From Myxococcales bacterium (GTDB lineage Bacteria > Myxococcota > B64-G9), in the NCBI GenBank assembly GCA_012798435.1, contig JAAZNF010000035.1, positions 1 to 59,984 of the forward strand: a stretch of 59,984 nucleotides of DNA, written 5' to 3'. The position numbers were made by a program, and so were the translations under genes. The notes under the pieces are model-generated. The model was given only the letters and a program-made list of their open reading frames with translations, ran no database searches and was not told where the DNA came from. This document shows positions 1 through 46,919 of the stretch, one piece after another; within the stretch, counting starts at the first letter, position 1, and every line of letters begins with the position of its first letter.

Positions 1-2343
1 GAAGGCGCGGGCGTAGGCCACCACGGCCCGGTACTGGCCCGCGGCGTCCAGGCCGGCCTCCTCCAGCACCTTGTGCGCCTGGCCCGAGCCCAGGTAGTGC
101 CCGCGCGAGAAGGCGTGCAGGCTCATGCGCCGCCCCGCCTCGGAGGTCACAAAGCGGTACAGGGTGGGCAGGGTGAAGCCGGTGATGCCCATGGCCTCGC
201 GGGCGTGCGTCTCGGGGAAGATCTTCTCCCGCTCGGCCGGGGGCAACAGATCGAAGAGCTCGGTCGAGGCGACGGAGTAGATGTTGAAGTTGAAGCCTTC
301 TTTGTCCAGCCGCGGCAGGACCTTCTGCAGGAACTCCAGCGTCTCGCCGCTCCCCAAGAGGACCAGGGTGCCGTGGCGCGGTTTCTTCGGATCGGCGCGG
401 CGCAAGGCGTACACGCCGCTGACCGCGGCCGCGGGCGGCGGCAGCCCCAGGGCGGCGCGGTCGAGCACGGTCTCGGGCGGCCTGGTCACGAAGGGCGCCA
501 CCAGGGCCGGGCGCTTCTGCAAGGCCGCGATCACCAGCGGCCACATCTCGTTGGGGTCCCACGGGGTGAGGGTGATGGCCAGGCCGCGGGGGAAGTTCTC
601 CTGGAGCAGTTGCAGGCACTGGGGATCGGCGTGGGTGGGCCCGTCCTCTCCGGTCTTGAGCCCGGCGTGGGCGCACACCATCACGTAGGGAGCGCACGGC
701 GTGCCGTCGTACTCGCGCCGGGCCTGCTGGCCGATGCAGTGCAGGCGCGCCGCCACGTGCTGCAAGGGCGCGATGAAGGCCCCGTAGGAGGCGCCGGCCC
801 CCAGGTGGTGTCCGGCCACCCCGGCCGCGGCCAGCAGGGCGCCCATGGCGTCCTCGCAGATGCCGCCGATCGAGAGCAGGCGCGAGCGGGGGTTGCGCGC
901 GGAGTGGTAGAACCCCTCGGGGAAGCCCTGGTTGACCTTGTTGATGCTGGTCGAGCCCAGCAGGTCCGCCGCCGCGGCGATCACGCCGCCGCCGCTCTGC
1001 TGGTTGATGTACGAGAGCACCGCGCCCAGCGCCTCGCGTAGCGTGATCTTGTCGCCAGGCTTGGTGACGACCGCTGCCGGCGGCGCTTCCGGGCGCATGC
1101 TCTTGCCGTCGTAGAGCTTTGCAAGATCCGGGGCGTCGGCGCGAAGCACCCGGCCGCGGCGCGAAAGGCGCGCGGCGGCCTCGGCCACGCGGTCACCGAG
1201 GATCTTCATGCGCCCCAGGTTGGCGCGCAGGCGCTCGCGGATGACCTGGAGCAGCTCCCAGTAGTAGTTCTCCATGGCCTGGTCGGTCGGCTCACCAGAG
1301 AAGCGCGGCAGCTTGGCGTCGAAGCACTGCTCGAACTCGGCCAGCGAATGGTAGAAGCCGTCCGAGCAGACCTTGTGGCCCGCCCCGTGCGAGGCCCGGC
1401 CCTCGATGCCGTACTTCCAGCCCTTGACGGTGCGGTACACGATGGCAGTGGGCTGGTGGTTCTGGTGGGAGAGCGCGTAGGCCTGGGCCGCCAGGATGTC
1501 CGCGTGCTCCAGACCCTGGTCCACCCGGATCACGTTGAAGTCGTGGAAGCGCGCCAGCTCCACGGGATCCCACTGGACGTAGTCACCGGGGTTCTGACCG
1601 TCGCGGCACACGCGGTTGGAATCGATGGAGGCCTGGTTCCAATCGATGTGCAGCACAAGGTTGGAGAGGCCCAGGGTGGCCGCCGCGGCCATGGCCTCCT
1701 GGACCCGGCCCGGGGTGAGCCCGCCCTCCCCCTCGACGATGTGGACGCGGGGCGGGTCCTGCGGGAAGAGATCCATGGCGGAGAAGGCCAGCCCGACCGA
1801 GGCCGCCACCCCGACGCCCGAGGCGCCGGTGGAGAGTTTCACGAACGGAGTGGCGGGGGTCGGGTGGCCGTCCAGGGCCTTGGCCTTGAACTTCTTGAAG
1901 AGCTCCGTGTGCTGGGTCGGGTTGCGCCGGAAGCCCAGCAGGTCCTCCAGCCGCAGGCGGCGGGCCGGATCGGGGAGCAGTTCAGGATGGGTCTGGGCCA
2001 TGATCTCGTCCCGCAGCGCCAGCATGGCGTAGAGCCCGAGCGCCTTGTGACCCGCGGCGTAGGAGATGATGTCGGACTCCGGTTTCTCCGGGTCCAGAAA
2101 GTCGTAGTCCATCGAGTGGTAGAGCAGCGCCTCCACGAAGCGGCTCGAGGAGATGCTACCGCCCGGGTGGCCCGAGGTCGGCACGCAGTTGAACATGATG
2201 CTGACCAGGGTGCGGTAGGCGAGGTTGAGGTCCGCGAGCGCGGCCAGAAAATCCGGATCGGCGTTGAACCGCTCGTTGGAAGGAATGGAAGCAGCGCTGG
2301 TGGCGTAGCCCTGGCGCGGCCCGAGTTGCAGCGTCTCGCTCAT
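1..2343 (-). CDS. Transketolase-like thiamine-diphosphate enzyme (C-terminus cut by window edge)
   Basis: The reading frame is open from an ATG at 2343 to base 1, giving 781 residues with the C-terminus missing. An early HPGGS motif, a later GHKALG, and a VEGEGGLTPGRVQEAM stretch followed by NLVLHIDWNQASID match the thiamine-diphosphate domain of transketolases. The pyrimidine-binding half shows GGICEDAM, with the family's catalytic Glu, and EDGPTHADP, a variant of the usual EDGPTHQP. It should transfer two-carbon ketol units in the pentose phosphate or a related sugar pathway in the cytoplasm. It is already longer than a usual 660-700 residue transketolase, so an atypical subfamily is likely. 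GGAGGT lies just upstream of the ATG. Confidence 0.85.
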   Translation of the reverse strand, partial: MSETLQLGPRQGYATSAASIPSNERFNADPDFLAALADLNLAYRTLVSIMFNCVPTSGHPGGSISSSRFVEALLYHSMDYDFLDPEKPESDIISYAAGHKALGLYAMLALRDEIMAQTHPELLPDPARRLRLEDLLGFRRNPTQHTELFKKFKAKALDGHPTPATPFVKLSTGASGVGVAASVGLAFSAMDLFPQDPPRVHIVEGEGGLTPGRVQEAMAAAATLGLSNLVLHIDWNQASIDSNRVCRDGQNPGDYVQWDPVELARFHDFNVIRVDQGLEHADILAAQAYALSHQNHQPTAIVYRTVKGWKYGIEGRASHGAGHKVCSDGFYHSLAEFEQCFDAKLPRFSGEPTDQAMENYYWELLQVIRERLRANLGRMKILGDRVAEAAARLSRRGRVLRADAPDLAKLYDGKSMRPEAPPAAVVTKPGDKITLREALGAVLSYINQQSGGGVIAAAADLLGSTSINKVNQGFPEGFYHSARNPRSRLLSIGGICEDAMGALLAAAGVAGHHLGAGASYGAFIAPLQHVAARLHCIGQQARREYDGTPCAPYVMVCAHAGLKTGEDGPTHADPQCLQLLQENFPRGLAITLTPWDPNEMWPLVIAALQKRPALVAPFVTRPPETVLDRAALGLPPPAAAVSGVYALRRADPKKPRHGTLVLLGSGETLEFLQKVLPRLDKEGFNFNIYSVASTELFDLLPPAEREKIFPETHAREAMGITGFTLPTLYRFVTSEAGRRMSLHAFSRGHYLGSGQAHKVLEEAGLDAAGQYRAVVAYARAF

Positions 2344-42433: not shown

Positions 42434-42463
42434 CAAATACCGGCAAACTCGAGCAACAGTCAA
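42434..42463 (-). promoter_or_regulatory. Candidate leaderless promoter of the FHA-PilZ-HrpB operon
   Basis: On the minus strand TTGACT (42463-42458), an 18-nt spacer and TATTTG (42439-42434) are followed by 7 nt and ATG 42426. The -10 lacks the usual final T, but no Shine-Dalgarno sequence is present. Confidence 0.4.
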
Positions 42464-42860
42464 GACGAAAATTCCCTCGATTCAATATCGGGCATCATTA
42501 ATATAACCAGATCAAAAAGCTCAGATGTAACCACATCGCAACACCAGCATCGCCTACACCGAGACAAATAGTCCCACATGCAACCATATGATATATATGA
42601 TTATATTAAAAAACCAGCAGGTATATTTACAAGAGCATGTAACCAGTTGTCTCATAAAATTGCCAAAATTCCAAAGTAATTTCAATGTAGATACAAAAAG
42701 ATGCCAAGAAATATGCGCGACAAAATGTCTCACTTTATCAATAACAGACAATTGAAAAAACGGCACATAGTCACAACTTATTGTTTAATATGCTAAAATC
42801 AATACAAGAAAAATATGACAGTATGGAACAATTTTTGCTAAATACGGCCGCGTGAAGATC
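42457..42860. other. AT-rich island without gene
   Basis: Bases 42481-42840 contain 118 G/C in 360 nt (33%), while the flanking genes are well over 60%. Only short frames occur, none with ribosome site or family resemblance. ATGACA at 42815-42820 and TAAATA at 42839-42844 could form a promoter for the papain-like gene, and TGCTAAAAT at 42791-42799 is another -10-like element. Confidence 0.7.
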
Positions 42861-42907
42861 GTTACCTTCCAATAGCCCACCTAAAAGCGAACACAGGAGA
42901 CGCTTCC

Positions 42908-45900
42908 ATGAAAATCAGAATCCGTATTTCCTTCGCGCAGAAGATTGGCCTGACGGCCCTTCTTTCATTCCTGCTCCTCGCAGGTTGCGACGCCGGATTC
43001 ATCGAAAACGACGACTTCACCACCGAACTTTCGCCGGAGAATCGCCTCTCGCTCGGCGAGCGCGACATCGGAAAGGTGGCCGACCTGGCTCCTTTCCAGG
43101 TGGCCGCCATCGAAGTCCCCGCCAACATCTCGACCGGGTTCTCCTGGGAAGTGGAAGAGATCGATCCGCGGCTCTCGGTAGTCGGATCCGAATACGTCCA
43201 GGACACCTCCGGCCTCCTGGGCGCCAGCGGCCGGCAGATCTTCTACGTGGTGGGCAACGAGCCCGGCAAGGCCGGCCTGCGGCTGACCTATGCCCGACCG
43301 CTGGAGCGACACAACTACCTGCGCTCCGCCCGCTTCGACTTCCAGGTGATGTCGAAATACACCGGCAACTTCCGTTACATTCCGCGCGAGGCGCCGGAGG
43401 TTCCGATCGACAACCCGACCGTGCTGCGCGCCAGCCTGCCGACTCACTTCTCGTGGTGCGAGCAGGGCGCCTGCCCGCCCGTGCGCGACCAGGGAGACTG
43501 CGGCGGCTGCTGGTCCTTCGGCACGGTGGGCGTGTTCGAGAGCGCGCTGATGCGGGCCGGAACGTCCTCCCCGAACCTCTCCGAGCAATACCTCATCTCC
43601 TGCAACAACGAAGGGTTCGGGTGCAACGGCGGCTGGTGGGCCCACGACTATCACATCTCCACGAAGGTCTCCGGAGAGACGGAAGCCGGCGGCGTGAACG
43701 AGAGCTCCTTCCCCTACACGGCCACCGACAGCAGCTGCAACCCGCCCCACGCCAAGGTGGCGAAGCTCCAGAGTTGGGCCTACGTCGGTAACGACAGCTC
43801 CGTCCCCTCCACCGATCAGCTCAAGACCGCCATCTACAACAACGGGCCCTTGGCGGTGGCGGTGTGCGTCAACACCTACTTCGAGAACTACAGCGGCGGC
43901 GTGTTCGCCGGCCCGAGCTGCACCGGCGTCAACCACGCCGTCATCCTGGTCGGCTGGGACGACGGTGACGGCGCCTGGATCATGCGCAACTCCTGGGGCC
44001 CGAGCTGGGGTGAGAACGGCTACATGCGCATCAAGTACGGTGTGTGCCAGATCGGCTATGCCGCTTCCTATGTCGTGTATCAGGGCGGGAGTGGGACGAC
44101 CCCCACCGCGAACTTCTCCGTCACCACGAGCGGCCTCTCCGCCTCCTTCACCGACACCTCGACCGCCGGCAGCGGGACCATCAACTCCTGGAGCTGGAAC
44201 TTCGGGGACGGCGGCACCTCGAGCGTGCAGAATCCGAGCCACACCTATGCCGCCGCCGGCACCTACAACGTGACGCTGACGGTGGGAGACAGCGCCGGCA
44301 AGACCAGCAGCGCCACCAAGGCCGTCACGGTGAGCCAGCCGGTGGCCGCCTACTGCGCCTCCAAGAGCAACAACTGCTCCGAGGAATGGATCGCCAAGGT
44401 GCAGGTGGACGGCTTCGCCAAGACCTCCTCGGGACAGACCTACAGCGATTTCACGAGCAGTGAAATCAACCTGGCACCGGGCACTCACACCCTCACCCTG
44501 ACGCCCGGATTCTCCGGGAGCGCCTACAAGGAGTACTGGGCGGTGTGGATCGACTGGAATGGCGACAAGGACTTCGCCGACAGCGGCGAGCAGGTGTTCG
44601 CGGCGAACGGCACCGCCGCGGTGACGGGAACCTTCACGGTTCCGACCTCGGCGCCCCAGGGCCAGACCCGCCTGCGCGTGGCCATGAAGTACAACGCCGC
44701 GCCGACAAACTGCGAGACCTTCTCCTACGGCGAGGTCGAGGACTACACCCTGAACGTCACCGCCGCCGCCGGCGAGCCCAGCGCGAGCTTCACCTACGCG
44801 GCCACCGGCCTCGCAGTCGCCTTTACCGACACCTCCACCCACAGCGGCGGTACCATCACCTCCTGGAGCTGGAGCTTCGGTGACGGCGGCACCTCGAGCG
44901 CGCAGAACCCGAGCCACACCTATGCCGCCGCGGGGACCTACAGCGTGACGCTCACGGTGGGCGACAGCGCCGGCAAGACGAGCAGCGCCAGCCAGAGCGT
45001 GACGGTCACCGCTCCCAGCGCGAGCTACTGCGCCGCCCAGGGTAACGACATCAGCGACGAGTGGATCGCCAAGGTGGCCGTCGGCTCCTTCACCAACACC
45101 TCGAGCGCGGCCGGGTACACCGACTTCACCTCCAAGGTGATCTCCCTGGTGCCGGGAACATTCTCCGTGGCGCTGACCCCCGGCTTCTCCGGCAGCGCCT
45201 ACAAGGAATACTGGGCTATCTGGATCGACTGGAACGGCGACAAGGACTTCACCGACAGCGGCGAGCAGGTGTTTGCGGCCAACGGCACCGCCGCGGTGAG
45301 CGGCACCCTCACCGTTCCCGCCTCGGCCCCCCAAGGTCAGACCCGCATGCGGGTGGCCATGCGCTACAACGTCGCGCCCTCCGCCTGCGGCAGCTTCGAC
45401 TACGGCGAAGTGGAGGACTACACCGTGGCCGTCGCCCCCGGCGGCGGGGCACCCACGGCGTCGTTCAGCTACGCGGCGCAGGGCCTGACGGTGTCCTTCA
45501 GCGACACCTCCACTCCCGGAGGCAGCGCCATCGCGGCCTGGAGCTGGAGCTTCGGCGACGGGACCACCTCCACCGCCCAGAACCCCAACCACAGCTACAG
45601 CCAGGGCGGCAGCTACACCGTGACCCTCACGGTCACGGACGGCGCCGGACAATCCGCCAGCGCCTCTCAGACCGTCACCGTATCCGAGCCGGTAACCAGC
45701 TACTGCGCTGCCCAGGGCAACAACGCGAGCTACGAGTGGCTCGCCAAGGTTCAGCTCGACACCTTCAGCAAGTCCTCGGGCGCGGCCGGCTATTCGGACT
45801 TCACTGGCACGGTCATTCCGCTGTCGACCGGCAGCCACACCATCCAGCTCACGCCGGCCTTCTCCGGCTCCTCCTACACCGAATACTACCGCGTGTGGAT

Positions 45901-46117
45901 CGACCTGGACGGCAACGGCGACTTCGCCGGCGTGGGCGAGCAGCTCTTCTCCAAGTCCGGCAAGTCCGCGGTGAGCGGGACCATCACCATCCCGACCACG
46001 GCCATCCCCGGCCCGACCCGCATGCGCATCGCCATGAAGTACAACTCGGTGCCGTCCTCGTGCGGGTCGTTCTCCTACGGCGAGGTGGAGGACTACACCG
46101 TGAACATCGCGCCCTGA
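42908..46117 (+). CDS. Papain-like (C1) lipoprotein protease with chagasin-like domain and PKD-GEVED modules
   Basis: The 1069-residue protein starts at an ATG after AGGAG. It has a lipoprotein signal (LLLAGC, Cys27). Residues about 49-148 resemble the chagasin/I42 inhibitor fold: N73-I-S-T-G77-F, GASG at 105-108 and RPLE at 130-133, mirroring NPTTG, GxGG and RPW. Residues about 178-390 form a C1 peptidase with Gln195, catalytic Cys201 in GGCW, His343 and Asn361 in NSWG. Three PKD plus GEVED units follow from about residue 399, each 225 residues. Secreted or surface protein degradation with built-in self-inhibition is inferred. Confidence 0.9.
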   Translation: MKIRIRISFAQKIGLTALLSFLLLAGCDAGFIENDDFTTELSPENRLSLGERDIGKVADLAPFQVAAIEVPANISTGFSWEVEEIDPRLSVVGSEYVQDTSGLLGASGRQIFYVVGNEPGKAGLRLTYARPLERHNYLRSARFDFQVMSKYTGNFRYIPREAPEVPIDNPTVLRASLPTHFSWCEQGACPPVRDQGDCGGCWSFGTVGVFESALMRAGTSSPNLSEQYLISCNNEGFGCNGGWWAHDYHISTKVSGETEAGGVNESSFPYTATDSSCNPPHAKVAKLQSWAYVGNDSSVPSTDQLKTAIYNNGPLAVAVCVNTYFENYSGGVFAGPSCTGVNHAVILVGWDDGDGAWIMRNSWGPSWGENGYMRIKYGVCQIGYAASYVVYQGGSGTTPTANFSVTTSGLSASFTDTSTAGSGTINSWSWNFGDGGTSSVQNPSHTYAAAGTYNVTLTVGDSAGKTSSATKAVTVSQPVAAYCASKSNNCSEEWIAKVQVDGFAKTSSGQTYSDFTSSEINLAPGTHTLTLTPGFSGSAYKEYWAVWIDWNGDKDFADSGEQVFAANGTAAVTGTFTVPTSAPQGQTRLRVAMKYNAAPTNCETFSYGEVEDYTLNVTAAAGEPSASFTYAATGLAVAFTDTSTHSGGTITSWSWSFGDGGTSSAQNPSHTYAAAGTYSVTLTVGDSAGKTSSASQSVTVTAPSASYCAAQGNDISDEWIAKVAVGSFTNTSSAAGYTDFTSKVISLVPGTFSVALTPGFSGSAYKEYWAIWIDWNGDKDFTDSGEQVFAANGTAAVSGTLTVPASAPQGQTRMRVAMRYNVAPSACGSFDYGEVEDYTVAVAPGGGAPTASFSYAAQGLTVSFSDTSTPGGSAIAAWSWSFGDGTTSTAQNPNHSYSQGGSYTVTLTVTDGAGQSASASQTVTVSEPVTSYCAAQGNNASYEWLAKVQLDTFSKSSGAAGYSDFTGTVIPLSTGSHTIQLTPAFSGSSYTEYYRVWIDLDGNGDFAGVGEQLFSKSGKSAVSGTITIPTTAIPGPTRMRIAMKYNSVPSSCGSFSYGEVEDYTVNIAP
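44102..46114 (+). repeat. Three tandem 675-nt PKD-GEVED modules
   Basis: The GACGGCGG-type codons of the PKD GDGG/GDG motif recur at 44207, 44882 and 45557, an exact 675-nt period. Modules 1 and 2 are also very similar at DNA level (GDGGTSS, YAAAGTY, AYKEYWA segments), while module 3 has diverged. This points to recent internal duplication. Confidence 0.85.
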
Positions 46118-46259
46118 CAGGCGCGGCTCGCCGACTCGAGCCCATCCCCACATCCTCTTTTCGCCTGAAGCGCATGCCTGCAAGCTCTTCGTGTCACCTC
46201 CGGCCCCGAACATTTTCATCTCTCGCCACGGCGCCGAGAACGCCGGAGGGGCCGGATGC

Positions 46260-46288
46260 TTGAAACGAGTTCTGGTACCGGCTAGCAT
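46260..46288 (+). promoter_or_regulatory. Leaderless promoter of the 46296 lipoprotein gene
   Basis: TTGAAA at 46260-46265, a 17-nt spacer and TAGCAT at 46283-46288 end 7 nt before the ATG at 46296. No Shine-Dalgarno sequence is present. Confidence 0.6.
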
Positions 46289-46295
46289 CTGGTTC

Positions 46296-46919
46296 ATGCG
46301 CCGTTCGCCGCTCCTGTTGCTGGCCCTGTCCTGGTTGGCTCCCGCCTGCTGCCACGTGAACCGTTTGCCCGGCCGGGCCGACCTCTTGCATAACGTCACC
46401 GTCGACGTGATGGTGGAGGCCTCCCCGCGGCCGGTGTTCACCCGCTCCCGCTCCCACTACCAGCGGCGCGCCCGCGGCGGGATCGCCGAGGCCAACATCT
46501 CGGCCTCGCGCTTCGACGACGCCATCCGCGGCATCTCGCCGGCCGATCTGACCCAGGGCGTGATCGAGGAGATGCCGCGGGCCATGACCGCCATCCTGGG
46601 GCGCGCACCGGTGACCGAGGGCGCGGCCCGCACCCGCCTCGACATCGTGGTGCGCGACGTGCAGATGGTGGCGCTGGACGCCATCTCCCCGGTGACCTGG
46701 GTGTGGACGGGACACGCGCGCCTGGAGGATGGCGACCGCGACGCTTGGCGGAACTGCTTCGAGTGGCGCCAGCCGGCGGACTTCGGCGGCGTCGAGGACT
46801 TCGCCCGCCTGCCGGAAGAACAGCGTCAGGCGCTGGTCCGCGAATCGGCCCGTCAGTTCGCCCGCTACCTGGTGCGGCACCTGGCCGAGGAAGCCGGTCT
46901 GGTCCGGGAGGGAACATGA
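46296..46919 (+). CDS. Small lipoprotein of unknown function
   Basis: The 207-residue protein has a lipoprotein signal peptide (LAPAC, then a second Cys) and a charged mature part. RTRLDIVVRDVQMVALDAI and TGHARLEDGDRDAWRNCF resemble lipoproteins of DUF4136-type or LptE-like fold, without a firm match. The frame opens far upstream, but the promoter at 46260-46288 and the signal peptide choose ATG 46296. Its stop overlaps the PilZ gene (ATGA). Confidence 0.65.
   Translation: MRRSPLLLLALSWLAPACCHVNRLPGRADLLHNVTVDVMVEASPRPVFTRSRSHYQRRARGGIAEANISASRFDDAIRGISPADLTQGVIEEMPRAMTAILGRAPVTEGAARTRLDIVVRDVQMVALDAISPVTWVWTGHARLEDGDRDAWRNCFEWRQPADFGGVEDFARLPEEQRQALVRESARQFARYLVRHLAEEAGLVREGT

Follow-up and report, generated by a model that had tools for sequence, protein, structure and literature searches.

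The zymogens of papain and cathepsin L carry an N-terminal inhibitory segment, the I29 propeptide, which is removed by cleavage. A secreted papain-like protease may also be co-encoded with its own inhibitor, as in the staphopain/staphostatin systems, although there the two are separate chains and the inhibitor is cytosolic and of another fold. Inhibitors of the chagasin or ICP family (MEROPS I42, including T. cruzi chagasin, P. syringae Cip1 and amoebiasin) target C1A peptidases and have been described as separate proteins acting in trans (PMC5014320, PMC2607524, PMC2845656). Work on them has centered on parasites and plant pathogens; what the bacterial ones do is largely open (PMC5014320). 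Human procathepsin F bears a cystatin-like domain N-terminal to its C1 enzyme (PMC11171618, citing Naegler 1999). Prokaryotic multidomain C1A proteins are a largely unread group, since they were set aside, and not analysed in detail, by a 2023 survey of the papain family (PMC10380794).

The window (the whole 59,984-nucleotide stretch of DNA that was analysed) encodes a 1069-aa protein in which a chagasin-type I42 domain precedes a papain-type C1 peptidase (Table 1). As in procathepsin F, an inhibitor-type domain thus lies N-terminal to a papain-type enzyme, but the fold is that of chagasin and not cystatin, and the ERFNAQ-type propeptide that cathepsin F also keeps was not recognised in the window protein. 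Removal of the N-terminal segment by cleavage, as in papain and cathepsin L zymogens, is proposed here as well, but an Ig-like I42 domain occupies the place of I29. With the chagasin family the window domain has in common the fold, the L2 motif N-x-[ST]-T-G and the L4 Gly motif, and the target class of that family, C1A, is the class of the enzyme on the window chain; known members are separate trans-acting proteins, whereas this I42 domain sits on the chain of the C1 enzyme itself.

Table 1. Features of the I42-C1 gene in the window.
Feature	Position (nt)	Strand	Basis
Whole gene, 1069-aa signal/lipobox - I42 - C1 - (PKD-GEVED)x3 protein	42908..46117	+	ORF and Pfam
Signal peptide with terminal lipobox LAGC; lipidation probably at Cys27	42908..42988	+	Sequence, strict lipobox pattern
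Inhibitor_I42 (chagasin-type) domain, residues 58-148	43079..43351	+	PF09394 and AF2 fold
Loop L2, NISTGFSW, residues 73-80	43124..43147	+	Chagasin loop as defined in PMC2607524
Loop L4, LLGASG, residues 103-108	43214..43231	+	Chagasin loop as defined in PMC2607524
Loop L6, YARPLE, residues 128-133	43289..43306	+	Chagasin loop as defined in PMC2607524
I42-C1 linker, residues 149-176, disordered 164-174, proposed cleavage region	43352..43435	+	pLDDT, spacing
Papain-type peptidase C1 domain, residues 177-389, Gln195/Cys201/His343/Asn361	43436..44074	+	PF00112, Foldseek
Alternating PKD and GEVED domains, three of each; best matches at 631-701 and 768-840	44090..46114	+	PF18911, PF20009, three stretches each
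Sigma-70-like promoter match in AT-rich upstream gap, weak	42770..42799	+	Consensus match only

The open reading frame was recovered on the strand and at the positions given by an earlier sequence-only reading. A long antisense ORF (42965-46441, minus strand) is read as a by-product of the high G+C content of the coding gene. Upstream lies an AT-rich gap of ~430 bp (window 42460-42890) in an otherwise G+C-rich stretch. The LAGC at residues 24-27 fits the strict lipobox pattern and follows a signal peptide, and Cys27 was invariant in five of five close relatives, whose lipoboxes are looser than that of the window protein. Judged from these sequence features, the protease is secreted and probably lipid-anchored.

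A profile match and a chagasin-type fold had been named as the checks on the inhibitor domain, and both came out in its favor. PF09394 matched residues 66-146 with E 5e-14 and 52.8 bits, against a curated cut-off of 27.2, and a profile built from 30 I42 domains (28 fused, 2 free) matched PDB structures of ICP, amoebiasin and chagasin with E down to 2.7e-23. The AlphaFold2 (AF2) model of residues 40-155 had a pLDDT of 93.1; Foldseek ranked amoebiasin-2, amoebiasin-1 and chagasin first (TM 0.71-0.82), with TM of 0.75-0.82 to 2nnr, 3m88 and 6cjz. The model thus places the region in the Ig-like chagasin fold. The landmarks NISTGF (Asn73-Phe78), GASG (to Gly108, within L4) and RPLE (Arg130-Glu133) stand where chagasin needs them, although the domain spans about residues 58-148 and not 49-148 as first proposed. 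NISTG fits the chagasin NPTTG, and GASG, with Gly105, is close to GxGG, but RPL, which follows Tyr128-Ala in L6, departs from the chagasin RPW/F, and the L6 motif is lost in the nearest relatives of the window protein.

The C1 domain begins about 30 residues after I42 (PF00112, E 3.3e-49), and its Gln/Cys/His/Asn set was complete, as the sequence-only reading had it, and invariant among the five close relatives. The I29 propeptide model PF08246 had no match in the window protein; a weak search of its own genome, in which the control was silent too, gave none either. The best Foldseek match of a model containing both domains was ervatamin C (E 1.3e-17), and the best 50 matches covered the C1 part only.

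The pairing was found well beyond this gene. Its own genome holds exactly two I42 matches, each fused to C1, and the I42 search found no free I42 inhibitor there; the second match belongs to a 798-aa paralogue on another contig (C94), with I42, C1, PKD, GEVED and lamin-tail domains. The fusion was also present in three of eight family relatives searched. A scan across genomes, with the C1 region of the window protein as its seed, gave at least 79 loci. Among the matches listed, a home-built I42 profile placed I42 before C1 at 32 of the 79, distributed over Chloroflexota (16), Myxococcota (10), Thermodesulfobacteriota (3), Bacteroidota (2) and Pseudomonadota (1), which makes at least five bacterial phyla with the pairing. 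Carriers in culture are Levilinea saccharolytica, Leptolinea tardivitalis and Desulfogranum japonicum. In an alignment of the window protein with 28 of these loci, each of the 29 sequences matched both Pfam models with E up to 0.01, one of them (L115) below the curated cut-off. In 30 of the 32 fused loci among the matches listed, the catalytic Gln followed 45-72 residues after I42 ended. What comes behind C1 differs freely from protein to protein (PKD/GEVED, dockerin, clostripain C11, Bacteroidetes sorting tail), and the constant element is the I42-C1 core only. About 200 extra residues separate I42 from C1 in L048:5671-7992 and L051:996-3587, which lie in a C1 clade that otherwise bears a short prodomain; this spacing, which speaks against the prodomain reading, may reflect an inserted domain or an independent fusion.

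The inhibitor loops were conserved above the rest of the domain, with a mean of 2.69 bits at loop positions vs 1.63 elsewhere in I42 over the 29 fused proteins (Mann-Whitney p 2e-6). In L2, Gly77 and Trp80 were invariant and Thr76 was present in 24 of 29; Gly105 of L4 was kept in 27 of 28; in L6, Arg130 was found in 24 of 29, Pro131 in 17 and Trp/Phe at 132 in 23, where the window has Leu. Some of this conservation is structural, as in free chagasins. These counts bear on the possibility that I42 is no longer inhibitory and acts as a folding aid, an exosite or a spacer. Protease prodomains often do help folding, and in the window's own subfamily L6 does not hold; yet L2 and L4 hold in the same subfamily, and the conservation of the loops extends over all fused proteins. 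A mere spacer should drift at the loops, as has the C-terminal I42-like domain of a conserved protein of the same phylum (family f13, below), so that the kept loops argue against it, and a non-inhibitory role is considered unlikely. The RPL of the window and the loss of L6 in its nearest relatives suggest that the contact in cis at L6 may be weak or different. In chagasin, the L6 mutation W93A has a cost of about 100-fold for cathepsin L and only about 4-fold for cruzipain (PMC2607524), indicating that inhibition survives a weakened L6. A strong inhibitor in cis would be hard to activate unless cleaved or weakened, which counts against a cis-acting prodomain; a weaker one may be enough in cis and easier to activate.

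Relatives that are not fused have a short prodomain before C1, with the consensus GWTFTVGENPATxYSLDQLCGL. A profile built from 19 of them detected it, among the matches listed, in 42 of the 48 I42-less sequences and 0 of the 34 with I42, and had no match in the window protein up to E 10. Three of the six I42-less sequences without the short prodomain begin at a contig end. On the C1 tree the I42 label must change 3-4 times, so that the exclusion goes back to 2-3 independent events; these agree in direction, but their number does not allow a claim of significance, and a Fisher p value for the swap overstates the evidence. In two other loci, a secreted I42 gene lies directly upstream of a C1 gene, 65 bp apart in L101 (5836-6282 and 6348-7307) and 39 bp apart in L111 (279-686 and 726-1673). 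As in the window, I42 and a C1 of related type are encoded together, but on separate chains, and the separate C1 keeps its own short prodomain. Genes that stand apart in one genome and are joined in another usually mark functional partners, and the occurrence of I42 and C1 both as neighbor genes and as fusions points to such a partnership.

Fusion for delivery only, with I42 acting in trans against proteases from competitors, prey or neighbors, or against other C1 peptidases of the organism, is likewise improbable. In its favor, every I42 protein that has been studied well acts in trans (PMC5014320, PMC2607524), the genome encodes a third strong C1 peptidase without I42, and Levilinea has two free I42 genes besides four fusions. 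Delivery alone, however, predicts other positions and partners, whereas I42 keeps nearly the same position and distance before C1 from one phylum to the next, and replaces a prodomain. An artefact, by a false profile match or a chimeric assembly of this draft genome (129 contigs), can be dismissed given the paralogue on another contig and the same architecture in independent assemblies and in the three cultured species.

Taken together, the fold, the conserved loops, the near-constant spacing, the absence of the short prodomain from fused proteins, the spread over several phyla and the two-gene loci make it probable that I42 inhibits in cis, as the prodomain of a secreted papain-type zymogen from which it is cut off in the linker. 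The sequence-only reading had suggested an intramolecular propeptide; conserved position and spacing, the prodomain swap and the loop conservation speak for that role, while inhibition and activation by cleavage are inferred. The AF2 model of residues 40-398 had a pLDDT of 90.3 and a pTM of 0.86, with a pLDDT below 50 in the linker at 164-174. A pTM of 0.86 needs a mean I42-to-C1 error near 3 Å, and a freely moving I42 would give about 0.65, so that the model places the two domains with confidence relative to one another, which bears only indirectly on docking. By homology, the L2, L4 and L6 loops would enter the C1 cleft of the same chain. The protease would accordingly be made as a zymogen with a chagasin prodomain, probably lipid-anchored after secretion, in which I42 docks on its own C1 domain and inhibits it. 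A cut in the disordered linker (~164-174), by the enzyme itself or by another protease, would then part inhibitor from enzyme; in the window's subfamily this would free C1-PKD-GEVED and leave the inhibitor on its lipid anchor at the surface of the producer.

An inhibitor-type domain before a papain-type enzyme has a precedent in procathepsin F, while for the chagasin version no description was found: no published I42-C1 fusion was found in the open-access literature, and the architecture may well stand uncommented in Pfam. As a papain-type prodomain, a chagasin would give the family a natural cognate target and would be a new way of making a papain-type zymogen. More tentatively, and with slightly less than even confidence, free chagasins and chagasin prodomains might be interchangeable forms of one module, present as a trans pair or a cis fusion, with the short C1 prodomain swapped for a chagasin. 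If so, zymogen prodomains would include chagasins as one of their classes, and the free forms may derive from prodomains or vice versa. Matched cis and trans forms of one module are available for comparison.

Several other I42 proteins were encountered. In an Anaeromyxobacter MAG (L010), a free I42 gene with RPWE (1291-1779, plus strand) lies tail to tail with a fused I42-C1 gene (1865-3265, minus strand), ~85 bp apart. In Levilinea saccharolytica, a single 1684-aa chain (L074:5464-10515, plus strand) unites I42 with papain-type C1 and clostripain C11, and a second copy is found on the same contig in opposite orientation. The ~480-aa frames of family f13 were considered as further fusions and rejected, as those read on the plus strand have a C-terminal I42-like domain, no C1 and a broken L2. 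These loci (L022, L024, L027, L030-L032) encode a conserved protein with a Lys/Ala-rich start and a weak C-terminal I42-like domain, with QPGYTW in L2 vs NPTTGYxW, and similar matches occur in most genomes of this family. A secreted protein (L017:811-1791, plus strand) has two Kazal-like cysteine-rich repeats, one just above the Kazal_2 cut-off, followed by I42, and is from its sequence a possible double-headed serine/cysteine protease inhibitor. An M78 (ImmA/IrrE-type) metallopeptidase with a C-terminal I42 (L019:832-1818, plus strand) represents a protease-I42 fusion of a different class.
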